Positions 1-57,745 of a DNA stretch of 64,000 nucleotides are shown piece after piece. Source of the stretch: Chelativorans sp. J32 (GTDB taxonomy: Bacteria > Pseudomonadota > Alphaproteobacteria > Rhizobiales > Rhizobiaceae); NCBI RefSeq assembly GCF_000518985.1, contig NZ_JAEQ01000021.1, positions 1 through 64,000 on the forward strand, written 5' to 3'. Below the pieces are notes generated by a model. That model did not search any database and was not told the origin of the DNA. It saw only the letters and a program-made list of their open reading frames with translations. The stretch's first letter is position 1. Each line of letters begins with the position of its first letter. The translations under genes were made by a program, and so were the position numbers.

Positions 1-488
1 CATCATGCCTTCCCTCGTTCATATGCTGGACACTCCACGCACTGGGGAGGTTGCCGGTCGCAGTCCTTGTCCTTGCGTCCCGCAAGTCGATGCCGATGTC
101 ATGGTCTGGCTGCGTTCTCCCCATGACTCCCTGCGAGACGCCATACATATACGCCCGCATTCGGACACCCCCCGCCTACGTGTTGGGGGCACCATCAGCA
201 TTCCGCCTGTTAAGCCGTGTAGGCGAAGGCGACATTTCAGCCCTCGGATGCGGATTAACCGGTTCGTGTTCCTCAACCTTCCAGTGCTACAGCCTCGGGA
301 ACCATCTCGGCGTAACGGCTTCGCCTCAATTCCCTTTACCTGCGGGCTACGTCACCCTGCCAGTTGACGACAGGTCACCGCCGCTTGGGCTCATGCCCCT
401 CACAGCAGGGGGCACGGCATTCTTCAAATCCTCCTTTCTCAATGCATTCCAGTCATATGCACCCCGGACCATCCGGGACGAGGCGCAC
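1..488 (-). mobile_element. Group II intron, 5' portion (runs off the window)
   Basis: On the minus strand the IS3-type transposase reading frame stops matching after the codons for SDFTY plus one G. The sequence then changes to GTGCGCC, which fits the GUGYG 5' end of a group II intron. The next ~490 nt have no convincing ORF but are rich in short complementary blocks, as expected of ribozyme domains I-III. A possible intron-protein start (ATG at 22-20) lies at the edge, so the reverse transcriptase/maturase and 3' end would be outside. The intron is in the sense orientation of the host transposase. I identify it from the 5' motif, the clean break in the exon and the structure-rich composition; the class is not determined. 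Confidence 0.7.
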
Positions 489-911
489 CGTAGGTGAAGT
501 CCGACACCCACAGCATGTTCGGCCGCGGCGCCCGGAACTGCCGATTGACGCGATCGAGCGGGCAGATGGCTGTCTTGTCAGCGATCGTTGTGCGCACCCG
601 CTTGCCGCGGATCACCCCTTGCAAACCCATTTTCCGCATCAGCCGGGCGACCGTGCATCGGGCCACCTCGAAGCCCTCCCGCTGCATCTGCCGCCAGATC
701 TTGCGCACGCCATAGACCTGTCATCGAAAACCCTGCGGATCTCGCTCATCAGCTGAGCATCCCTCTTGACCCGTGCCGGTGCCGTCTCCGGGTTCTCGCG
801 GCGGCGCGCATGGGCGTGATAGGTCGACGGGGCAATCGCCAGTACGCGGCAGATCGGCTCGACCCCGTGCTCATCGCGGTACGCATCGACAAAGCGGATC
901 ATGGCTTCCAT
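489..911 (-). pseudogene. IS3-family transposase OrfB, frameshifted and split by the intron
   Basis: The frame starting at 911 reads [20 protein letters not shown], typical of the start of an IS3 OrfB, and runs to about 722. The match then moves to another frame, which gives VRKIWRQMQREGFEVARC and continues to WVSDFTY. A short deletion in the linker (normally about DENFxVYGV) explains the shift. The rve/DDE integrase core starts at SDFTY and is cut there by the intron, so most catalytic residues are not in the window. The gene is doubly inactivated here unless the intron splices and the deletion is tolerated. Confidence 0.82.
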
Positions 912-1231
912 CGGCGGTCGAGCTCCGCCTGGGCAAAATAAGCGCTGGCCTTGCGCAGGATCTCGTTGGCCTGCCGCAGCTCGCGGTTCTCGCGCTCCAG
1001 TGCCTTCATGCGCTCGCGCTCGTCCGTTGTCAGACCGGCTCGCAGGCCCTGGTCGCGCTCTGCCTGTCGCACCCAGGTATGCAACGTCTGCGCCGTGCAG
1101 CCGATCTTGACGGCAATCGAGGTAATGGCCGCCCACTGCGACGTGTGCTCGGGCGCGTGCTCAAACACCATCCGTACGGCGCGCTCACGCACCTCAGGCG
1201 AAAACTTACGGGACGTCTTGTGATTCTCCAT
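899..1231 (-). CDS. IS3-family transposase OrfA
   Basis: A 110-residue helix-turn-helix subunit of an IS3-family transposase. It opens with [20 protein letters not shown], continues through an HTH ([18 protein letters not shown]) and ends in a leucine-zipper-like coiled coil ([24 protein letters not shown] cut short here as [18 protein letters not shown]), the standard OrfA layout. OrfB overlaps its 3' end, so the active product would be an OrfAB fusion made by -1 frameshifting. The terminal inverted repeat lies 21 bp upstream of the start codon. This subunit looks intact while its orfB partner is broken. Confidence 0.9.
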
Positions 1232-1251
1232 GGCTCCAATCTCTCAAGATC

Positions 1252-1281
1252 TGGAGCCTCCGACAAACCCGGAGCGGTTCA
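1252..1281. repeat. IS3-type terminal inverted repeat (outer end)
   Basis: On the minus strand this 30-mer starts TGAACCGCTCCGGGTTTGTC, closely resembling the ends of IS51-group IS3 elements. It lies just outside orfA and directly abuts the interrupted orfA of the second element at 1282, so it marks the exact insertion junction. Confidence 0.75.
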
Positions 1282-1408
1282 CCCCGCGGATCGCCTCAAG
1301 CGCGACCTTGGCCTTGAACTGGGCCGTAAACCGTCTGCGTGTCTTCATGCTGGATCGTCCTTTTCAGCGGAAGATCCACCTTATGCCCCTGTCTCGGAAA
1401 CCGGGACA
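1282..1408 (-). mobile_element. Second IS3-family element, 5' end with orfA start, interrupted at 1281
   Basis: On the minus strand an ATG at 1348 begins MKTRRRFTAQFKAKVALEAI, the N-terminus of IS3-family OrfA proteins. After about 22 codons it is cut by the terminal repeat of the inner IS. Upstream, 1381-1408 reads (minus) TGTCCCGGTTTCCGAGACAG, matching the conserved end of such IS elements. The rest of this element should lie beyond the inner IS and intron, outside the window; the OrfB tail at 3381 is on the opposite strand and cannot be its direct continuation. Confidence 0.75.
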
Positions 1409-2018
1409 ACCTCACATCTTTGCGCTAGGAGAAGAGCCAGCGGCTGTATGATCGCCGACCGAGGCCTTGCGGATTGCAATCGTTCCCCACGCAAAGTTGC
1501 GCCTAAATACGTCCGAGCCTTGCGACGCTCGGCCCGGCTCCGTTGGTTCTGTACGATGGCACCAGCTCGCGAGAGTATCATCAAACAACGCATGTGGGCC
1601 AGGCCTCCTGTAAGACCCCCAAAACGCTTCCACAGGGAGACTATCTACTTCGTCCTCTGAAGTTCTATCCTCAATAACTCTCTTGCCGCGAGGCTATGGT
1701 GTCCCGCACGGCACCGCGCTTCAAAGGACGCCTTGGTTGATGTGACAACCTCATTGCCGCACCGAACCCATTCGTGTTGCTTCCAACCTGGGATGGCAGA
1801 CGTGGTGATCGAGCGATTGCACGACAGATTACATTCGTTGTCTAAGGGCAGGCAGGGCGGGGACGAGCGTCCGAATGGGGGCCGTTTTCCGATCCGCCAG
1901 TTTGGGTACCGTCCAAAAGAAGCCGCCGTTCCGCATCAACTCCTCTGCACGCATTGGATAGATTGCCCCCCGCCCAAGCAGCCGGCCGCTAGTCTACCCT
2001 GGGATAGGGCTTCCATGC
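1409..2018. other. About 600 bp without a recognisable gene
   Basis: No open frame here gives a recognisable protein on either strand. The longest frames (plus 1733-2053; minus 1381-1633) have arginine/proline-rich shadow composition and no motif I know. It is probably decayed DNA between the insertion sequences and the methyltransferase gene. Confidence 0.5.
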
Positions 2019-2720
2019 TCAATCTTTGTCGGCGTACCAACCTCGGATCATGAAAGCTTGGAAGAACGGGACCGGCTTTTGGAAGCCGCCAGCCTTCCAC
2101 ATTGCCTCCGTCTCCGTCGGCGGTAGGATACTCAGGACGTCACGCATCATGTCGCCAAGCTTTGCCAGAGTTTCCGGCGTTGCTCCCATTAGAGACTGGA
2201 TCTGCTTCCAGTCTTCCAGTATTTCCGGAAAGGTCGGGGCATCTAGGTCACCACTGATCTCAGCGCTGATGAACCGACCTCCCGACCTCAGCCGATCATG
2301 AATGGCCGAGTAAAAGCGGTGTCGGTCTTCGCGTTTGATGAAGTGCGCGACCAGCAGGCTGACTGCCGCATCAAAGCTGTCCTGGGTAACATCCTCGGCA
2401 TATCCCTGAAGAAGTTCGCATCGATGCAGAACGCCAGCGTGTTCGAGGCGACTGCGTCCGACGGCAAGCATTTCTTCGGATGGATCGATTCCGACAAATG
2501 ACCAACCAGGGTTTGCCTTCGCGAGCGACAAGATTTCCGCTCCGGTTCCCACGCCGACGCAAAGCACACGCGCGTTCAGGGGGAGGTCGGCTAGAACCAG
2601 TCGGATAAGGAAGTGCAAACTATCGGATATTGGTGCGAGCGCGCTGTTGCGGCGGTCGTAGGCTTCGGCGATGTCACGGTTGAATAAGTTGGGAGAGGTG
2701 GCGTTAACGGGTTGTGGCAT
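2019..2720 (-). CDS. Class I SAM-dependent methyltransferase
   Basis: A 233-residue soluble protein with a Rossmann-fold methyltransferase core. Motif I is VLCVGVGTGAEILSLA (residues ~53-68), followed by an acidic ribose-binding stretch (FVGIDPSEEML) and a motif IV-like DAAVSLLVAHF. The C-terminus (MWKAGGFQKPVPFFQAFMIR) matches small methyltransferases related to UbiE/TrmN-like groups that act on small molecules, but no substrate can be assigned. It is the only apparently intact non-mobile gene in the first 7 kb, isolated among IS fragments. A potential start ATG at 2720 is used; no operon partner is visible. Confidence 0.85.
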   Translation of the reverse strand: MPQPVNATSPNLFNRDIAEAYDRRNSALAPISDSLHFLIRLVLADLPLNARVLCVGVGTGAEILSLAKANPGWSFVGIDPSEEMLAVGRSRLEHAGVLHRCELLQGYAEDVTQDSFDAAVSLLVAHFIKREDRHRFYSAIHDRLRSGGRFISAEISGDLDAPTFPEILEDWKQIQSLMGATPETLAKLGDMMRDVLSILPPTETEAMWKAGGFQKPVPFFQAFMIRGWYADKD

Positions 2721-2876
2721 TGTTATTGTGTACCAGACTTGACGTGCATCAGGCCAGCCCCGTTAACTCCAAGGACCCACCAGCGCGTGACTGGCCGATT
2801 GTGCGAGAATTAGGCGTCCGCTCTCAACCCTTTGTCGTCGTTCCGGCTGCTCCAGTCACTGGCCCGGAACCTGGCG

Positions 2877-3160
2877 TGTCGGTCTTCACATTCGCATGGG
2901 CGATCATATGTACCAGCCTGGGATTGGCGATCACAACCCGATCCACATAGGGCGTCAGCACTTCAGCCACGACCGCAGCATTCCCCGTCGCCTCGATCGC
3001 CACATGATATCGTGGGTGAGCTCCTTCCTGGCGAACTCCTCCAACTTATCGCGCAGCATCTGAACCCGGCCGAGCTTGACGATCTCGCCGTCGAGCAACG
3101 ACACGACTTCGGCGGCAACACGGTGTATTCCATACCGATGATACGCACGGCTTCCTCCAT
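2877..3160 (-). pseudogene. IS110-family transposase remnant (N-terminal, frameshifted)
   Basis: Minus-strand fragments in three frames join into an IS110 N-terminus. MEEAVRIIGM starts at 3160; after a shift near 3128 comes IHRVAAEVVSLLDGEIVKLG and then LRDKLEEFARKELTH; after another shift near 3005 comes HVAIEATGNAAVVAEVLTPY, ending IAHANVKTDT. The family normally continues IDA with the rest of the DEDD catalytic core, but the match stops at about 2877. With two frameshifts and no C-terminus it cannot be functional. Confidence 0.78.
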
Positions 3161-3380
3161 CGCTGGACGAGAACAGCGAGCCAGCGGACAACACGACAAA
3201 TACGGATCCGCGCTCGCAGCGCATCTGGGCGAGTCGTAGGGGCGGCCAGATAACGTGCTCGAACTCTCAGTTCATCTGCATACGACGGCCTGCCCGCACT
3301 TGCGTGCTCCCGGTGCCCCGTGGCCCGGATGCGCCAAGCTTATCCAACCTGACGACCAATCCAACGTTGGCAACAACAAC

Positions 3381-3590
3381 ATGCCGGATAACGGCTATGT
3401 CGAATCCTTCAACGGCCGCATGCGCGATGAGCCGCTGAACGAGAGCCTGTTCTTCGGCATCGACTATGCGCGCAGCGCCATCGCCGAATGGAGGCAAGAC
3501 TTCATCACCGCGAGGCCGCATTCCTCGCTCGGCTACCAGACCCCGGCGGCCTTCGCCGGAACCCTCTTCGCTACTCCAAGAACGTCCGGG
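3381..3590 (+). pseudogene. IS3-family transposase OrfB, C-terminal remnant
   Basis: The plus frame reads NGYVESFNGRMRDEPLNESL, then FGIDYARSAIAEWRQDF, then RPHSSLGYQTPAAFAGTL. This is the conserved C-terminal part of the IS3 integrase core, including the catalytic Glu in YVESFNG. The normal upstream residues are replaced by unrelated sequence and no OrfA is nearby. It is on the opposite strand to the elements at 489-1408, so it is a separate remnant. Confidence 0.82.
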
Positions 3591-3609
3591 CCGCCCCCTT
3601 TTGCCCCTC

Positions 3610-3994
3610 GAGGTTCTTGTCGCTATTCTTCTCCTGCCGCTCGAATACTTTTTCAAAGGTGAGCCGCGCCACATCTGAGGTAGACCTACTTATGCCGGAC
3701 CGGTCGCCGGCCATTTGCGGCGCGGGCGAATAGCTGGGCAGACGTTCAAGGGCTTCGATCAGGCCCGGTCGCCTGTGGTAAGCTGTTCAAGCGCCCTCTG
3801 GACGGCCCCCGACAAACGGTGGAGTTCCTAGTTCAGAAGCTCCCGGTCCTGAGGCGTCACGTATAGACGTTTGCCTTTCAGGATGTCGTCGGACTAGGAT
3901 TCGTACCTCTTCTTCAGGGCATCGCCAATCAGCGGCGTGAGCAGTTTCCGCGGGAAGGGAATCCTCTGATGCCAGTCGACCAGGCTCGCCAGCC
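3610..3994 (-). pseudogene. Stop-riddled coding remnant of unknown origin
   Basis: On the minus strand a protein-like frame reads LVDWHQRIPFPRKLLTPLIG and DALKKRYES, then a stop, then SDDILKGKRLYVTPQDRELL and a further stop, then ELHRLSGAVQRALEQLTTGD. A second piece, VARLTFEKVFERQEKNSDKN, ends at about 3570. Composition and phase look like decayed coding sequence, but I do not recognise the family. Confidence 0.3.
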
Positions 3995-4061
3995 GCGTTC
4001 TGACAATTCCAAAAAACTCAATGGTTTCATTGGGTGGAGATAGATGGATTTGTCAGAACGC
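3995..4061. repeat. 16-bp inverted repeat with a nested palindrome
   Basis: The arms 3995-4010 and 4046-4061 are inverted copies of GCGTTCTGACAA(T/A)TCC with one mismatch. Between them, CAATG GTTT CATTG (4019-4032) forms a small hairpin almost at the same centre. It lies just upstream of the LexA box and the imuA remnant. It could be paired ends of a minimal mobile element, a recombination site or an operator. Confidence 0.55.
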
Positions 4062-4104
4062 AATTGATTTCCTTATATTTTTCTCTGACTCACTTTCCGA
4101 AAGA

Positions 4105-4119
4105 GAACAAATAATGAAC
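4105..4119 (+). promoter_or_regulatory. LexA (SOS) box, GAAC-N7-GAAC
   Basis: The 15-mer GAAC-AAATAAT-GAAC is an exact match to the alphaproteobacterial LexA operator (GTTC-N7-GTTC on the other strand). It overlaps the first ATG of the imuA remnant (4114), where imuA-imuB-dnaE2 operons are normally SOS-controlled. The site is perfect although the genes behind it are broken. Confidence 0.82.
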
Positions 4120-4355
4120 ATAACAGCCCATTGGCGCGTTGCAAAGCCCTCAGGAGACCGGATTTTGGCCGATCGCGCGGCAAACCTTCATATCGTCCAG
4201 CTTCGGGAACGCATCGCGCGGCTCGAGGGTGGCTCTGCACGCCGGCGCGAGGTCCTGCCATTCGGCGTCCCCGAGATAGACAAGGTACTGCCGGGAGGAG
4301 GGCTGGCGCTCGGCGCGCTGCATGAGGTTGCTGGCGGCGCCAACGGCGCTGTCGA
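4114..4355 (+). pseudogene. imuA: ImuA (SOS mutagenesis RecA-like protein), N-terminal remnant
   Basis: The frame contains LRERIARLEGGSARRREVLP, FGVPEIDKVLPGGGLALGAL and HEVAGGANGAVDG, the highly conserved N-terminus of ImuA. ImuA is the RecA-like accessory protein of the ImuAB-DnaE2 translesion mutasome. After about 80 codons it passes out of frame into imuB sequence, so the rest of imuA and the imuB catalytic region are deleted. Translation might start at the ATG inside the LexA box (MNITAHWRV) or later; usual ImuA starts lie closer to LRERIARLEG. Confidence 0.85.
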
Positions 4356-4951
4356 CGGGACCGGAGCTCATGCGCCGGCTCGACCAGGCCATGGGCCGCG
4401 CCGCCGAGCCCTTCGAGCCGGTGCGCTCGCCGGAGCTGATCGAGGTTCGACGTGCCCTCGGCGAGCCGATCGGCGCGCCGGAGACGATCGCGCGCTATAC
4501 CGGCAAGCTCGTGGATCAGCTCTGCGCCGCCCTCGAGACGCAGGGACTCGGCGCACGCCGGCTCGATCTCCTGTTTCACCGTGTCGACAATCGCATTGAA
4601 GCGATCCGCGTCGGCACGGCCGCGCCCGTTCGCGAAGCGCGCCGACTGACGCGCCTCCTCAGCGACCGTATCGAAACCGTGGATCCAGGTTTCGGTATCG
4701 AGCTGATGACGCTGACCGCGACGCGGGCCGAACCGCTCCGTGACCGGCAGACCATTTCGACGCTGGTCGAACCAGAAGAGCCGGACATCTCCGACCTCAT
4801 CGACGTCATCGCTAATCGCCTGGGAACAAACCGGCTCTATCGCTTCGCACCGGTGGAAAGCGATGTGCCGGAGCGCTCCGTCAAGCGCGTGGAGCCGACT
4901 GCACCCGACGAAGGCGCGAGCTGGCCGGGGGACTGGCCACGACCGGTTTGA
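4356..4951 (+). pseudogene. imuB: ImuB (Y-family polymerase-like), C-terminal remnant
   Basis: This continues directly from the imuA fragment in another frame. TGPELMRRLDQAMGRA, ETIARYTGKLVDQLCAALE, GLGARRLDLLFHRVDNRIE and RIETVDPGFGIELMTL are characteristic of the little-finger/C-terminal part of ImuB. It stops at WPRPV, where ImuB normally continues for many more residues, so both ends are missing. The fragment is open for 209 codons from 4322, but that ATG lies in imuA DNA. ImuB normally bridges ImuA, DnaE2 and the beta clamp. Confidence 0.85.
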
Positions 4952-5137
4952 GGAGGCGCGCTGGCCACGAATGGTTTGTTCGCCGGAAACATATCTCAAC
5001 CAGCTTCATAAACAAAGCGTCTTGAACGCTATCAAATTTTGATAAAGGAACACGGATCCCGCGTCACTCTAACGATCGGCAAAAGGACGCGCTGTTGCGC
5101 CTGCCGATCGCACAGGCGGATTCACTACCCGTTCGGC

Positions 5138-5174
5138 CTTAGTGTACGATTTTGGACTGTTCCTGTTCCGACCC
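5138..5174 (-). repeat. Tn3-family-type terminal repeat, first copy
   Basis: This 37-bp stretch from CTTAGTGTACGATTTT to GTTCCGACCC is about 80% identical to the Tn3-type end at 7617-7654 and lies in the SAME orientation. A Tn3 end points outward with GGGG and inward with TAAG, so this copy is the right-hand end of a different element whose interior lies to its left, where the imuA'-'imuB fusion is. Confidence 0.65.
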
Positions 5175-5226
5175 TCCATTATCTCAACCAGCTTTAGAAG
5201 GGGACATGGTACAATTTCGTATCCTT

Positions 5227-5695
5227 CTATTCACGATAGCCGAGTTCTGCCGAAATCTGCGCAGCACAGCTCCGCAAGCGCTGCGCAACCTCCGCCTCGA
5301 GTGAAGGATCGAAGGTGCCGGCCGGTCCCATAATGGTCATGACCAAGGATAGCCGGCGCACATGGTTGAAGACGGGCGAACTGATGGCGTTCATGCCAGG
5401 CACTGTCAATCCGATAGATCTGGCCTGGCCAACCTGGCGGACCTCCGAGAGTAGGGCCTCCACCTCCTGCCAAGGCCGTTTCAAGGTGTGCTGGGGAGAC
5501 CCACCGAAACGAAAATGCTCGGTCTCGATCATGCCTTCAATGAACTTCGATTCCATATAGGCGGCGAAGACCAAGCCAGTCGACGTGTTGAACAGCGACA
5601 TCACCGTCCCCGGACGCATATACACGTTCAAAGGATAGTTGACCTCTTCGGATCGCACGATGGTCGGACCCATGCTGCCCCATATCGCCGCGGCG
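5227..5695 (-). pseudogene. IclR-family transcriptional regulator, C-terminal fragment
   Basis: The minus frame contains MGPTIVRSEEVNYPLNVYM, IGLTVPGMNAISSPVFNH, then LSLVMTIMGPAGTFDPSLE and CAAQISAELGYRE at the natural stop. This is the ligand-binding half of IclR regulators, including the GMNAISSPVF and FDPSLE motifs. The N-terminal winged helix is absent. At about 5695 the sequence switches to Tn3 transposase in a different frame, so the gene was cut by transposon rearrangement. Confidence 0.8.
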
Positions 5696-52209: not shown

Positions 52210-53016
52210 TCAGTTGGATTTGGTGCGCAGGCCGGACAGCCGGGAAAGCAAATTCTCGCGCGAGATCTCGCCGAGATGAGCGTGCTGCAGCATGCCTTCC
52301 GCATCAATGAAAAGGGTCGCGGGGAGCCCCGGCGCGCCATAGTGGCGGGCGAGATCACCGAACCGATCGAAAAGAACGAGATCGAGTGCAATTTCCGCAT
52401 TGGCGAGGTAGTTTTCGATCGCTGCTCGGCTTTCGCCTTGGTTCGCAAAGACGAAGTCGATATCGGCGGAATCATTGGCAATCTCCGCCATCATCGGCAT
52501 CTCGCGTCTGCAGGGTGGACACCAGGTGGCCCAGAGGTTGATCACTTTCGGGATTCCGGGAGTGCCGTCCAACTCATGATCGCCACCGGCCAACGTCTCC
52601 AGGGCAATGGCGGGAAGGGAAATGGAGGGAGCGGTTCCGCTGATCCGCCAGGCTGTGTTCCATACCACCAGCGCCGCAGTGAGTGGCAACAGGGCCCAGA
52701 GGCGCTGGCGTGCTGTTCGGAGGCCGACAAGCAGGCAAAGCAGCACAGCGGCAAGCCCGGCAGGCCAGAAGAAGCCTCCCTCCCAAAATGCAAATGCACG
52801 GATCGGATCTTGCGCGAAGATGCGCCAGTGAATCAGAACGTGTCCCAGGCGAGCCGCTGCAATGGATCCAAGAAGGACCCACCAGGACCATGGAAGGAAA
52901 CGCTCGTCGACCCGGCGCGCGAGCAATCCCGTGATCAGGATGAATACAAACATGCCGAGAATCACGGCGAAGCGGTCTGCTGCGAGAACCAGCGGCCCAA
53001 TGGATACGGCGTTCAT
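52210..53016 (-). CDS. TlpA-like thioredoxin with N-terminal Lgt-like membrane domain
   Basis: A 268-residue fusion. The N-terminal ~125 residues hold about four membrane helices and resemble prolipoprotein diacylglyceryl transferase (Lgt): LVLAADRFAVILGMFVFILI, AARLGHVLIHWRIFAQDP, WEGGFFWPAGLAAVLLCLLV. The C-terminal ~140 residues are a periplasmic TlpA/ResA thioredoxin with active site VINLWATWCPPCRREMPMMA and the cis-Pro loop GAPGLPATLFIDAEGML. It lies between dsbD and the DsbA-like gene with gaps of 1 and 15 bp, so DsbD probably reduces it. The Lgt-like part lacks most Lgt catalytic residues and may serve only as anchor. Confidence 0.85.
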   Translation of the reverse strand: MNAVSIGPLVLAADRFAVILGMFVFILITGLLARRVDERFLPWSWWVLLGSIAAARLGHVLIHWRIFAQDPIRAFAFWEGGFFWPAGLAAVLLCLLVGLRTARQRLWALLPLTAALVVWNTAWRISGTAPSISLPAIALETLAGGDHELDGTPGIPKVINLWATWCPPCRREMPMMAEIANDSADIDFVFANQGESRAAIENYLANAEIALDLVLFDRFGDLARHYGAPGLPATLFIDAEGMLQHAHLGEISRENLLSRLSGLRTKSN

Positions 53017-53017
53017 G

Positions 53018-54832
53018 TCATCTGCTCTCCGAGCGATGAGCCGAAGATGTCAGGGATTCGATGCTGATGTCGCCGACCAATCGTGTCCCTGGAACCTCGC
53101 GTGTTCCCCTGAAGAACAGCATGGTGGGTGGCCCGACTACGCCAAGCTGCTTCGTAAGCAGGGCGCTTTCCTCATCAAAGTCCGTTAGGTCAGCCTTCAC
53201 GAGTTGGAACTCTGACAAGGTCTCCCGCACTCCGCGATCCGGAAGAACTGCACGCTCGATTGTGCGACAGGTTGTGCACCATTCGGCGGTGAAATAGATC
53301 AGGGAGGGCCGTCCATCGGCAGCAGCAATCGTCTTCTGAAGTTGCGGCAGCGAATTGGCCTGTGCGAAATCCAGTTCTCCTTGCGTTTGACCCGCCGCAC
53401 CGCGGCCGGCAAAAATCGCAAGGGGGCGTAGCGGGTCCCTGGCACCTGCAGCCACACCGACCATCAAAATAGCGCCATAGATTAGGGCGACGGCACCCAC
53501 CGCTCGTCCTGCGGCAAGCGCGGGGCCGCGGGACGGAGTGGGTGTCAGCGTGAAGCTCGCCAGTCCGACAAGCAAGACTGCCCACAGCGCCAGATCAATT
53601 CCGGGCGGCAGTAACGGAGTGGCAACCCAGATTGCACTTGCCAGGAGCAGAAAACCAAACAGGCTCCTGACGCTCTTCATCCAGACGCCAGCTCGGGGCA
53701 GCGTGCCCCCTCCCAGAGTTCCCAACGCAATCAGCGGCAATCCCTTGCCGATCGCAAGCGCAAACAGCGCCGATGCTCCGAGCGAGACATCCCCGGTTTG
53801 CGCAATATACAGCAAGGCACCCGCCAGCGGGGGTGTGACACACGGCCCGACGATCAAGGCCGACGAGAAGCCAAGTAGCGCCGCCGCTCCCATGGTGCCG
53901 CCCAGCCGGCCGGTTTGCCTGACGACCGCACTCGTCCAAGCAGTAGGCAACTGGAGCTCGAACAGCCCGAACATGGGAAGCGCCAGGATTACGAAGACCA
54001 CGGCGATCACGCCCGTGGTCCAGGAAGACTGAAGCACCATCTGGAGGTTTTGCCCTGACCACCCGGCGATTGCTCCCAGGATCGCGAATGCGGTCGCCAG
54101 GCCAACAACATAGGAAGTCGACAATGCAAACCCGCGCCTCGGTGTCAGACGCTCGCTTTCGCGTGCCAAGGCTCCCGCAAGGATCGGATACATCGGAAGG
54201 ACGCATGGCGTAAACGCGAGGAGGACACCAAGAAGAGGGAACATCGCCAGCACCAGAAGTGCGCCACCCTGGCCCTTAAGCGATTGTACGAGTCCCTCGT
54301 CCTCTGCAGCGTCCAGTTGTTGCGTCGGATTCTGCAGCGACGCTGCGGCGCTCTGCCGCGACGGCGACTCAGTAGACCACTGGCCTGCCGCTGATCCGGG
54401 AGTCGAAGAGCCGGAAACCGCAAGCGTGAGCGGGTCAACAATCCGCCGCTCCGGAGCATAGCATATGCCATCCTCCTGACACCCCTGATAGGTGATCTCG
54501 ATCGGACTCGGACCGGTATGGGCAATCGTCGCATCAGCCCGGTCGTAATAGATCTCCGAGCGCCCGAAGTTCGGGTCGTCCTTTTTAATCCCAGGAGGGG
54601 TCGTAACGGGTAATTCAGCCCCACTTTCCGAGCGTGCGGTCAGTCGGTCGCGATAAAGATAATAGCCATCAGCAATAATCCATTCCACCGCGAGCGATCC
54701 GCCCTGACCCCGAGATACTGACATGGCGAATGCGTCATCAACACTGAGGGGCTCCTGGAGCGGTTCGCCAATGGCTAGGGAGTTCGCCTGAAACACGAGG
54801 CTGACGAGGATGGCAAAGACCGTCTTTCTCAT
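53018..54832 (-). CDS. dsbD: Protein-disulfide reductase DsbD (ScsB-like)
   Basis: A 604-residue membrane reductase with the three DsbD domains. The periplasmic alpha domain (~25-150) has the cysteine pair in TYQGCQEDGICYAPERRIVD. The eight-helix beta domain includes LLGVLLAFTPCVLPMYPILA and FSSALIVGPCVTPPLAGALL with its two cysteines. The gamma thioredoxin domain has YFTAEWCTTCRTIERAVLPD (CTTC). It carries electrons from cytoplasmic thioredoxin to periplasmic partners, here probably the TlpA-like and DsbA-like proteins encoded just downstream. It is divergent from the L,D-transpeptidase operon, with a CTTAAG-N5-CTTAAG box between them. Confidence 0.93.
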   Translation of the reverse strand: MRKTVFAILVSLVFQANSLAIGEPLQEPLSVDDAFAMSVSRGQGGSLAVEWIIADGYYLYRDRLTARSESGAELPVTTPPGIKKDDPNFGRSEIYYDRADATIAHTGPSPIEITYQGCQEDGICYAPERRIVDPLTLAVSGSSTPGSAAGQWSTESPSRQSAAASLQNPTQQLDAAEDEGLVQSLKGQGGALLVLAMFPLLGVLLAFTPCVLPMYPILAGALARESERLTPRRGFALSTSYVVGLATAFAILGAIAGWSGQNLQMVLQSSWTTGVIAVVFVILALPMFGLFELQLPTAWTSAVVRQTGRLGGTMGAAALLGFSSALIVGPCVTPPLAGALLYIAQTGDVSLGASALFALAIGKGLPLIALGTLGGGTLPRAGVWMKSVRSLFGFLLLASAIWVATPLLPPGIDLALWAVLLVGLASFTLTPTPSRGPALAAGRAVGAVALIYGAILMVGVAAGARDPLRPLAIFAGRGAAGQTQGELDFAQANSLPQLQKTIAAADGRPSLIYFTAEWCTTCRTIERAVLPDRGVRETLSEFQLVKADLTDFDEESALLTKQLGVVGPPTMLFFRGTREVPGTRLVGDISIESLTSSAHRSESR

Positions 54833-54891
54833 TGCACCTATCCGTCGCCCTACACGGGCGTGAACTGTTTTTGGGTGGGTGCTGTCCGGAC

Positions 54892-54908
54892 CTTAAGGCA
54901 GCCTTAAG
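54892..54908. promoter_or_regulatory. PmrA/QseB-type response-regulator box CTTAAG-N5-CTTAAG
   Basis: CTTAAG at 54892-54897 and 54903-54908 are separated by 5 bp (11-bp period), the architecture of PmrA/QseB-family binding sites; the whole 21-mer is nearly palindromic. It lies between the divergent dsbD and L,D-transpeptidase genes. A PmrA/QseB-like regulator is encoded in the second operon. Confidence 0.72.
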
Positions 54909-54956
54909 GTGAGGCGGCTGGGAAAGCGGTCCTGAAAACAGCAGAGGGTCCCTAGC

Positions 54957-55715
54957 ATGGCGCGCAGCCCCGATATCAAGGTTGAAAGCAACGAAGCAAC
55001 GAACAGGGGCACCGGTGGTGCTTTACGGCGGCGGGCGCTCCTGCTCGGCATGGGCGCGTTTGTCCTATCGGGTTGTGTCTCCGCACCGCGACAGAAACAG
55101 ACCGTGGCCCTTGAGCCCGCGCTTTCCCCGAAACCTGTCGTGCCGCCGATGTACTATGCGATGCCGCACGAGCGCTTTCCGATACCCGAAGTCGATGTGA
55201 CGCATCTTGATCAGCGCTTCTGGCGCGCCGAAGTGGACTATTCGACGGACGAGAAGCCCGGGACCTTGATTGTGGACACGCCTGCCAAGTATCTCTATCA
55301 CGTCAAGCCTGGTGGCCGCGCGACCCGCTATGGCATCGGAGTTGGCCGGGACGGCTTCGCGTGGGCCGGCCAGGCGATCGTCGCCTACAAGCGCGAGTGG
55401 CCCCGCTGGACGCCGCCGGATTCGATGGTGGAACGCCAGCCAGAACTTGAGCCCTACAGCATTGCGAACGGCGGAATGGATCCGGGACTGAAAAATCCGC
55501 TGGGCGCGCGCTCTCTCTATATCCATCAGAACGGAAAGGATACGCTTTACCGGGTTCATGGCACGCCAGAGGCTTTCAGCATCGGTAAGGCCGTCTCGTC
55601 GGGCTGCATCAGGCTCGTCAACCAAGACGTTATTCATCTCCATAGCGAGGTACGGGACGGAAGCTCGATCGTTGTGATCCCCGATCCTGCCATGGAGCAC
55701 CTGCTCGTGGGATGA
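54957..55715 (+). CDS. L,D-transpeptidase (YkuD family), lipoprotein
   Basis: A 252-residue cell-wall enzyme. The N-terminus carries GGALRRRALLLGMGAFVLSG followed by Cys, an LSGC lipobox preceded by arginines, so it is probably a lipoprotein. The YkuD catalytic motif is HGTPEAFSIGKAVSSGCIRL, with His and the nucleophilic Cys intact. Other family segments are DTPAKYLYHVKPGGRATRYG and MDPGLKNPLGARSLYIHQNG. It forms 3-3 peptidoglycan or lipoprotein crosslinks. It is the first gene of an operon with the two-component pair and a DsbA-like gene; its catalytic Cys may depend on periplasmic reductants. Confidence 0.9.
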   Translation: MARSPDIKVESNEATNRGTGGALRRRALLLGMGAFVLSGCVSAPRQKQTVALEPALSPKPVVPPMYYAMPHERFPIPEVDVTHLDQRFWRAEVDYSTDEKPGTLIVDTPAKYLYHVKPGGRATRYGIGVGRDGFAWAGQAIVAYKREWPRWTPPDSMVERQPELEPYSIANGGMDPGLKNPLGARSLYIHQNGKDTLYRVHGTPEAFSIGKAVSSGCIRLVNQDVIHLHSEVRDGSSIVVIPDPAMEHLLVG

Positions 55716-55742
55716 TCATCCGTAGAATGGTGAGGAGCGTAT

Positions 55743-56408
55743 ATGCGCATCCTGGTAGTCGAAGACGATCCTGTACTGCTTGATGGTCTATCAGCTGGTC
55801 TCGGCCTTGCAGGCTTTACCGTCGACGCGGTTGCCACCTGTGAGGACGCTTTTGCTGCCCTCGAAACGCACAAATACGGCACCGTGATCCTTGACCTGAT
55901 GCTACCCGATGGTTCGGGACTGGATGTGCTCGGATTCCTGAGGCAGCGAAGGGACGCAACGCCGGTGGTGCTGCTGACCGCGCGTGATCAGGTGCACGAT
56001 CGCATCGCGGGACTCGACGCTGGTGCCGATGACTATCTCGGCAAACCGTTCGACCTCGACGAGTTGGCCGCCCGGGTGCGCGCTGTCGCACGACGGGGAT
56101 CGGGACGTGCAACAGGTACATTGCATTGGCGGGGCGTCGTGCTCGATCCCGCAAGTCAGACCGCCAGCCTTGGCGGGAAGCTGCTTACATTGACGAGGCG
56201 GGAGTTCGGTATTCTCAGCACTCTGATGGAGCGCCCCGGGATGACGGTTTCCAAGGCCACGCTTGAGGAGACGTTATACGGGTGGCAGGAGGAGGTGGAA
56301 AGCAACGCCGTCGAGGTGCACATCCATAACCTCCGGTCGAAGCTCGGAACCGGTTATATCAAGACGGTTCGTGGCCTGGGGTACCGTCTCGCGGAGGAGA
56401 ACTCGTGA
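55743..56408 (+). CDS. OmpR/PmrA-QseB-type response regulator
   Basis: A 221-residue regulator. The receiver has MRILVVEDDPVLLDGLSAGL, the phospho-Asp in VILDLMLPDGSGLDVLGFLR and the Lys in DYLGKPFDLDELAARVRAVA. The winged helix has LTRREFGILSTLMERPGMTV, and WQEEVESNAVEVHIHNLRSK with TVRGLGYRLA, a stretch diagnostic of the PmrA/QseB/TctD subgroup. It overlaps the kinase gene by 4 bp. The matching CTTAAG-N5-CTTAAG box upstream of the operon supports autoregulation and control of dsbD. Confidence 0.92.
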   Translation: MRILVVEDDPVLLDGLSAGLGLAGFTVDAVATCEDAFAALETHKYGTVILDLMLPDGSGLDVLGFLRQRRDATPVVLLTARDQVHDRIAGLDAGADDYLGKPFDLDELAARVRAVARRGSGRATGTLHWRGVVLDPASQTASLGGKLLTLTRREFGILSTLMERPGMTVSKATLEETLYGWQEEVESNAVEVHIHNLRSKLGTGYIKTVRGLGYRLAEENS

Positions 56409-57745
56409 ACTCCATTCGAACGAGGCTCCTTGCGATCCTGATCGCGTCAACGGGGTTGGTCTGGCTCCTCGCCGTGGCCTGGATATATTTCAGCACGCAG
56501 GCCCAAGTGGAACGCGTGCTGGATGCGCGATTGATGGAAGCAGCGCGCATGGTCAATTCGCTGTTGGCCGAGCGAAGGATCGAACTTGCGCTTGCTGGAA
56601 ACGGCAGCGGTCCAATTGCCGAGGTTCAGTTCGAGGACGCAACATACGAACGGCAGCTGTCATGCCAGATATGGTCACTTGACGGCAGGCTGGTGGGGCG
56701 CTCTGAGCACGCACCCGAAGATCGGCTCACGGATTCCGGCAGCGGCTTCTCCGAAAGCGTAGTCAATGGCGAGGCGTGGCGTGTCTACGTGATCGAGAAC
56801 CCCCTTCTTGGTGTCCGTGTCATGGTCGGCGACAGCCTGCTGGTTCGCGACCGCCTTGTTGGCGGCGTCATAAAGGGGCTGGCCGTTCCAGCCGCACTGA
56901 TCCTTCCGTTTCTGGCTGGAGTTATCTGGGTGAGCGTCCGCCGAGGAATGTCGCCTCTGAACGAGATGGCAGGCGCGCTTTCCCGCCGAGAAGCGAGCGA
57001 CCTGCGACCTCTGCCGAACGAGAATTTACCGAAGGAGATTGCGCCGGCCATTCATGCGCTCAACGGGCTCTTCAGGCGCGTTGAGGAAGCGCGCGAGCGC
57101 GAGAAGAGCTTCACAGCTTTTGCAGCACATGAGCTCAAGACCCCATTGGCAGGTCTCAAAACGCAGGCTCAAGTGGCGCTCGCCAGCCATGATCGTCAGG
57201 TGCATGAGAACGCACTCCGGCAAATCGCGGCGGGTGTGGATCGTACCGCGAGGCTTGTGCGACAGTTGCTCGACCTGGCGGCCGTGGAAGCGGCAGACCG
57301 AACTCCTCACCTTGTTGAAGGCCGCCCACGGGAACTGGTCAGCCGCATCTTGGCCGACATGCCTGTCGAAAGAGATCGGGTGAAGGTGGAAGGCGATGTG
57401 AAGCAAGTCGCGGCGTTCGACGCCGTATTGCTTACATTGGCGGTGCGCAACCTTGTGGAGAACGCGCTCTGCCATTCTGAAGGCCCCGTGGTAGTCCGCA
57501 TTGAGGGCCGGAGCAGGACTGACATTTTGGTCGAAGATCAGGGCCCCGGGATACCTGCGGATGAACTTCCGCACGTGACCGATCGCTTCTTTCGCGGTCG
57601 CCAAAGGTCTTCCACGGGTAGTGGGCTTGGGCTTGCAATCGCGCAGGAGGCGATAGCCCGGATGGGCGGCGTCTTGTCGATCAGAAACCGAAACCCGCAC
57701 GGATTGGCTGCCACCCTGTCCTTCGCCGCAGAGGAGGAAAAATGA
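56405..57745 (+). CDS. Sensor histidine kinase (QseC/PmrB-like)
   Basis: A 446-residue membrane kinase with two helices (LLAILIASTGLVWLLAVAWI; GLAVPAALILPFLAGVIWVS) flanking a ~140-residue periplasmic sensor that carries a Cys (ERQLSCQIWSLDGRLVGRSE). A HAMP-like linker leads to the H-box FTAFAAHELKTPLAGLKTQA, then ATPase motifs NLVENALCHSEGP, EDQGPGIPADELPHVTDRFF and STGSGLGLAIAQEAIARMGG. Residues are intact for autophosphorylation. Overlap with both neighbours (4 bp each) shows translational coupling. The signal is unknown; periplasmic redox or envelope stress is suggested by the linked Dsb genes. Confidence 0.92.
   Translation: MNSIRTRLLAILIASTGLVWLLAVAWIYFSTQAQVERVLDARLMEAARMVNSLLAERRIELALAGNGSGPIAEVQFEDATYERQLSCQIWSLDGRLVGRSEHAPEDRLTDSGSGFSESVVNGEAWRVYVIENPLLGVRVMVGDSLLVRDRLVGGVIKGLAVPAALILPFLAGVIWVSVRRGMSPLNEMAGALSRREASDLRPLPNENLPKEIAPAIHALNGLFRRVEEAREREKSFTAFAAHELKTPLAGLKTQAQVALASHDRQVHENALRQIAAGVDRTARLVRQLLDLAAVEAADRTPHLVEGRPRELVSRILADMPVERDRVKVEGDVKQVAAFDAVLLTLAVRNLVENALCHSEGPVVVRIEGRSRTDILVEDQGPGIPADELPHVTDRFFRGRQRSSTGSGLGLAIAQEAIARMGGVLSIRNRNPHGLAATLSFAAEEEK

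Follow-up and report, generated by a model that had tools for sequence, protein, structure and literature searches.

An E.c.I4-like group II intron in IS3-family transposase genes of Chelativorans sp. J32 and the motif codons at its insertion site

A group II intron interrupts the transposase gene orfB of an IS3-family element at one end of a 64,000-nucleotide stretch of DNA from Chelativorans sp. J32 (the whole stretch is hereafter called the window), and a second copy occupies another IS3 element of the same genome. Very probably, this is a mobile intron of the E.c.I4 lineage that is specialised in DDE transposases and has homed into two IS3 copies here. This reading is built on observations of the anatomy and boundaries of the intron, a rule for its insertion sites, the pairing of its EBS1, and reading frames that are open or broken. 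Under the mechanism that we propose, the intron RNA would use its EBS1 loop to recognise the T-Y codons of the motif D-x-T-Y in IS3-family OrfB, and would reverse-splice into the codon after Tyr, directly behind its first base. The bases to be read are fixed by a protein motif, and therefore the intron could home into IS3 elements that otherwise have little in common. Retrohoming, probably recent, would have placed it in IS_A on contig C41 and in IS_B in the window. Splicing would rejoin the IS_A transposase mRNA, with the IS_B frame being lost separately. For this genome, the arrangement is an ordinary, well-explained layered insertion of mobile elements, and the additional interest lies in the breadth of the intron lineage and in a targeting rule that acts at the level of codons.

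Layered IS3 insertions and the parts of the intron

Position 1 of the window is the first base of contig C14, and is thus a contig end. Leftwards along the minus strand come a stub of one IS3-family element (IS_C), the left end of another (IS_B), its orfA, an ALIL pseudoknot, part of its orfB, and the intron, which begins at 488 (Table 1). ALIL pseudoknots stimulate frameshifting of the IS3 type. Features of the IS3 family are present, namely terminal inverted repeats, orfA together with orfB, and a DDE core. The 3' exon of one related locus (L017) is identical to the 3' half of IS_B, and scores 161.1 bits with the IS3-family model NF033516, for which the cut-off is 160.

Table 1. Features at the left end of the window (positions are those of the window)
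Feature	Positions	Strand	Remarks
IS_C stub, second IS3-family element	1284..1416	-	left end and first 21 orfA codons; start codon 1348-1346
IS_B 5' part, IS3-family	489..1281	-	left inverted repeat at 1281; alignment covers three other copies
IS_B orfA, 110 aa	899..1231	-	HTH_Tnp_1 PF01527, 40.7 bits
ALIL pseudoknot at orfA/orfB overlap	828..944	-	RF01497, 108.5 bits
7-base loss in IS_B orfB	717..720	-	shifts frame upstream of intron
Group II intron, 5' 488 nt (GTGCGCC...)	1..488	-	runs past contig end; 488/488 to the C41 copy and to L018
EBS1 hairpin of intron	164..193	-	28-sequence alignment; assignment to domain I is our reading
EBS1 CGTAGG	175..180	-	6/6 pairs with exon bases directly 5' of intron
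IBS1 CCTACG in 5' exon	489..494	-	part of Thr codon, Tyr codon and first base of next codon

A sequence-only reading of this region had described a three-layer nest, in which the intron lies inside one IS3 transposase gene and this in turn lies inside the orfA of a second IS3 element. The minus-strand orfA start that it placed at 1348 is indeed a start codon, and the terminal repeat that it placed at 1281 is an edge common to three other IS copies of the genome. The intron lies inside an IS3 orfB adjoining an IS3 orfA, as described, but the outermost layer is a 133-base stub only. Because the third element survives in this form alone, "nest" describes an order of events and not three recoverable elements. 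The claimed boundaries hold almost to the base; two extra bases (1282-1283) lie between IS_C, which ends after CGCGG, and IS_B. IS_C is 96.2% identical over its 133 bases to a Pseudomonas hydrolytica plasmid, in a stretch that holds the annotated start of an IS3 transposase gene. A search of the genome with the stub, made to locate the rest of IS_C, matched nothing but the stub itself, and the continuation of its 96% relative had no match in this genome in a search run without a positive control.

IS_B orfB reads W-V-S-D-F-T-Y, followed by the G that begins the next codon and then by the intron 5' end, GTGCGCC. A second intron 5' end closes contig C41 (223857-224344), inside IS_A and at the corresponding codon. 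The 5' exons of IS_A and IS_B are 71% identical (565/793), whereas their intron 5' parts agree at 488/488 positions. This jump in identity falls exactly at the intron junction and is far beyond chance, and it bears out the earlier claim that a group II intron cuts orfB after SDFTY-G.

Two intron 3' ends are found, one at either end of contig C25 (13,381 b) and in inverted orientation. They are 396/397 identical and their 3' exons 79% identical (415/524), and the remainder of orfB after each is open to its stop. Domain V (RF00029, 68.9 bits) occurs at both C25 ends and in a related intron of Nitratireductor aestuarii (L018). Group II introns carry a conserved 5' GUGYG and 3' AY, and both sequences are located here at exact exon junctions: GTGCGCC at the 5' end and ...CTCCAC at both 3' ends on C25. 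The refuting outcome named in the sequence-only reading, a lack of maturase and domain V, did not occur: both C25 ends carry domain V and the C-terminus of the maturase, and L018 is complete. The middle of the maturase is absent from this assembly, its whole frame being found in L018.

The 106 C-terminal amino acids of the maturase are assembled in this genome, and are open in both copies. No Pfam domain was detected in this segment, and PF00078 had no match in this assembly. Measured against L018, the assembly lacks ~1,371 nt of the intron, including most of the reverse transcriptase. The L018 intron is whole, at 2,256 nt, and contains a 508-codon maturase frame with a YADD motif. Its maturase scores 350.9 bits with TIGR04416, and in Pfam matches RVT_1 and GIIM only, with no endonuclease domain match. 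Since L018 agrees with the intron ends of this genome at 488/488 (5') and 395-396/397 (3') positions, we infer that it can stand for the unassembled middle. With L018 as the stand-in, the intron would belong to lineage E.c.I4, class A, as judged by a maturase that lacks the D/En region. Within the host's genus, 5 of the 16 genomes searched, host included, have a match to the intron 5' part.

When inverted repeats were paired by eye, with exon sides read separately, the right end of C25 was assigned to IS_B and its left end to IS_A. In Chelativorans petroleitrophicus the IS_B 5' half is also present (1,070 bases align, including 270 from the intron, with one mismatch and one 7-base gap), and so is the right-hand 3' half, identical at 923/923 positions that include 397 from the intron. 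Because the IS ends pair in this way and the C. petroleitrophicus halves agree, the likely order of the contigs is C41 - IS_A(intron) - C25 - IS_B(intron) - C14. IS_A and IS_B, in inverted orientation, probably flank the 11.5-kb segment represented by C25. As a separate matter, we considered them as the two ends of one composite transposon, but do not claim this arrangement because a search by eye saw no sign of it.

The interior of C25 recurs in C. petroleitrophicus (L114, on its contig C26, 2998-14562) at 99.4% identity over 11,565 bases, and there IS_B abuts the very base and side at which the end of IS_A abuts in this genome. We read the ORFs of this interior as two-component, Dsb-like, RND-efflux-like and ArsR-like. 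Elsewhere in the window, at 52210-57745, is a block that appears by eye to encode DsbD, thioredoxin, L,D-transpeptidase, a response regulator and a histidine kinase. The C. petroleitrophicus contig with the match to C25 has a similar block, at 67-72% DNA identity in three pieces.

Insertion sites and EBS1 pairing

Related introns were collected at 85 loci, of which 80 were found in GTDB genomes through the maturase C-terminus (80 kept of 103 found) and five are plasmid loci, three found by intron DNA, with a query that included five exon bases, and two by maturase. L013-L015, L103 and L104 were hand-picked among the matches listed, and one picked row was already labelled IS3. At 35 of the 85 loci no 5' junction was found by pattern, and five of the other 50 junctions stand at a contig edge, leaving 45 that are readable. 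Forty-two of these end in D-x-[TSP]-[YC], the cut falling one base into the codon that follows. As the sequence-only reading proposed, the window intron is in sense orientation and interrupts a conserved orfB codon. The three off-pattern junctions are L064 (DIFY), L070 (DITK) and L084, where the pattern puts the junction one base off. In IS3 transposases, the D of D-x-T-Y is the first of the three catalytic residues (DDE).

On the 3' side, 14 of the 85 loci were left out (five with no 3' site by pattern, four at a contig end, and five with an early stop). Among the 71 scanned 3' exons, 64 match NF033516 and 63 match the rve domain PF00665. Of the other seven, L025 matches IS6, and L013, L019, L084, L088, L091 and L092 have no family match. 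At L025 the IS6 model scores 85.3 bits on the 5' side and 71.5 bits on the 3' side, both below its whole-protein cut-off of 125. L013 interrupts a gene for a TonB-dependent receptor, with 200 open codons (no family match) before the intron and a PF00593 match of 117.4 bits after it.

Some of these loci have individual peculiarities. The L025 intron relative (668-5664) splits its IS6-type transposase after DETY, and its maturase holds ~2.2 kb of extra sequence. L013 (4404-8590) is a full intron relative on a Novosphingobium plasmid; it lies in sense in the receptor gene, whose frame is open to either side of it, and is an apparent escape from transposases. The 3' exons of L019, L084, L088, L091 and L092 look frameshifted to us. 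In L022 (5395-5480), domain V/VI is present as a tandem duplicate before the 3' exon; the junction has an N, and the duplicate is possibly an assembly artefact.

The predicted EBS1 hairpin was evaluated in 28 introns, drawn from a set of 32 by removing IS_A, L035, L039, L045 and L084 and adding L034. Seven of its ten pairs have changes on both sides, and 0/500 shuffles were as good. The fraction of paired cells is 88.3%, compared with 33-51% when the alignment is slid (L022 is out of register). In 26 introns (the 28 without L022 and L060), EBS1 pairs with the exon in 121/156 cells at the true register, versus 15-83 at eight other offsets.

Pairing was then tabulated by exon position for 47 introns, these being the 52 with a 5' site minus L055, which has a gap, and minus four without an exon. 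EBS1 pairs at positions -2, -3, -4 and -6 in 41, 44, 47 and 45 of the 47 introns; the first three positions are the Tyr codon and -6 is the second base of the Thr codon. At positions that are free to vary, pairing is seen in 23/47 introns (-1) and 22/47 (-5, the synonymous Thr position). The laxity at -5 is confined to GTGCGCCTC-type introns, where 10/30 pair, as against 12/17 of the others; 12 of these 17 non-GTGCGCCTC introns also pair at -2. Overall, 222/282 cells are paired, and 3/10000 exon shuffles were as good, rising to 100/10000 when L070 is left out, in a test whose shuffles ignore relatedness. At L070 (3128-3140) the exon encodes DITK and EBS1 is changed to match, giving 6/6 pairs. 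Covariation between exon and EBS1 in the first 26 introns was no better than shuffled (1197/5000, relatedness not removed). In our reading, the intron would recognise bases that are fixed by the protein motif.

With somewhat better than even confidence, we favour a broader interpretation in which a widespread endonuclease-less clade targets the D-x-T-Y codons of DDE transposases. EBS1 would read the second base of the Thr codon together with the Tyr codon, accepting both Tyr codons by G-U pairing, with one branch lax at the synonymous Thr position. Such targeting would let one lineage parasitise, and possibly restrain through splicing efficiency, many kinds of IS3 element as well as one IS6 element or more, and it would rarely have escaped into a TonB-receptor gene; a 2013 survey recorded only three near-identical class A members. 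The restriction of the laxity at -5 to one branch lowers our confidence in this clade-wide interpretation. The pattern suggests how a site-specific intron may follow a diverse transposon family, by reading the codons of a catalytic motif and not the sequence of one IS, and the codon-targeting rule bears on whether such introns brake IS3 transposition. Among the open-access full-text matches listed, which did not include the original E. coli papers, we recognised no earlier description of the motif-codon rule, and we do not claim that it is unpublished.

Splicing and the origin of the two copies

The sequence-only reading had also suggested that splicing could restore the mRNA of the window copy, and this is not supported as it stands. 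IS_B orfB changes frame ~230 bases upstream of the intron, where it has lost seven bases relative to L006, IS_A and C. petroleitrophicus, and because this loss shifts the frame, splicing alone cannot restore it. The sister element is in a different state: IS_A orfB is open on its 5' side up to SDFTY and is open on its 3' side, and therefore splicing would yield an mRNA with a continuous OrfB frame. As far as sequence can indicate, the intron is likely to splice in the cell. One full-length copy of this IS group is left without an intron, at L006 (C41:204034-204939). Two of the three full-length sites of the group found by search are intron-occupied, a count that leaves out two further weak matches (32% and 23%). 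Across the related loci the host orfB is often broken: 39 of the 71 loci with 160 downstream codons are open for at least 145 codons, and 17 of the 34 with enough sequence on either side are open on both.

Retrohoming is our preferred origin for the two copies, but the intron might instead have travelled inside an IS, with IS_B and its intron moving as one unit. This is a possibility of secondary rank that deserves to be taken seriously, and homing into IS_A would still be compatible with it. The IS_B 5' and 3' halves in C. petroleitrophicus stand at flanks different from those in this genome, as such a transfer would have it, but the transfer fails to explain the same intron in IS_A, with its 5' exon only 71% alike. 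Moreover, inspection by eye revealed no target-site duplication around IS_A, around IS_B or around the copy at L006, with the IS halves paired as we infer. Target-site duplications are usual for IS3 elements and not strictly defining, and old or rearranged copies lose them.

It is improbable that the intron is a dead fossil fragment interrupting a dead IS. A fossil would fit the frameshift in IS_B orfB and the lack of most of the maturase in the assembly. However, the intron is almost identical whichever IS holds it, and also in a second species, and both copies have an open frame at the maturase C-terminus. The missing stretch falls within a repeat, and presumably reflects the usual failure of assembly there. 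Less probable still is spread of the two copies by recombination or gene conversion between IS copies and not by retrohoming: IS_A and IS_B are homologous and in one genome, but next to the intron, whose parts are 99.7-100% identical, identity is 71/100 over the adjoining 100 alignment columns of the 5' exon and 80/100 over those of the 3' exon, with differences as near as -2 and +2, and a conversion tract should normally run over into the exons.

Comparison with known systems

Copies of E.c.I4 are described at specific positions of the transposases of IS629, IS911, ISEc16 and ISEc31, and an E.c.I4 fragment is listed in K-12 MG1655 (PMC3522654). Class A maturases are described as being without an endonuclease domain (PMC3552965). 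An E. coli plasmid intron among our loci (L103) aligns in two blocks, at 97.6-99.6% identity, with the ykfC fragment beside IS911A in K-12, and is probably E.c.I4 itself. It is inserted after ADFTY, at the same codon as the window intron, and its maturase matches RVT_1 and GIIM only; the K-12 fragment beside IS911A follows a ...VTY reading.

The window intron is very probably a new alphaproteobacterial member of the E.c.I4 kind. Like E.c.I4 and S.f.I1, class A introns of Escherichia and Shigella, it occurs in IS3-family transposases, and it does so at the same codon as the E. coli intron of this lineage. However, it begins GTGCGCC and not GTGTGCC, and relatives in its branch are found in many Alphaproteobacteria, and also in an IS6-type transposase and a TonB receptor gene. 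The maturase of L013, which belongs to the Novosphingobium locus and does not come from the present genome, shares 67-68% identity with most enterobacterial proteins among the matches listed, and 71% over 370 aa with K-12 YkfC in a pairwise comparison.

RmInt1 of Sinorhizobium meliloti, which resides in ISRm2011-2, is likewise an endonuclease-less intron in a rhizobial IS (PMC4238363; PMC5894124), and has been proposed to limit its IS through inefficient splicing (PMC4238363). It differs in that its host element is of the IS630 family and the intron belongs to class D (IIB3) (PMC5894124). IStrons likewise unite an intron ribozyme with an IS and provide the host gene with an escape through splicing (PMC4227781). 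However, in IStrons a group I ribozyme is fused with the IS as one mobile unit, whereas here a group II retroelement parasitises the IS.
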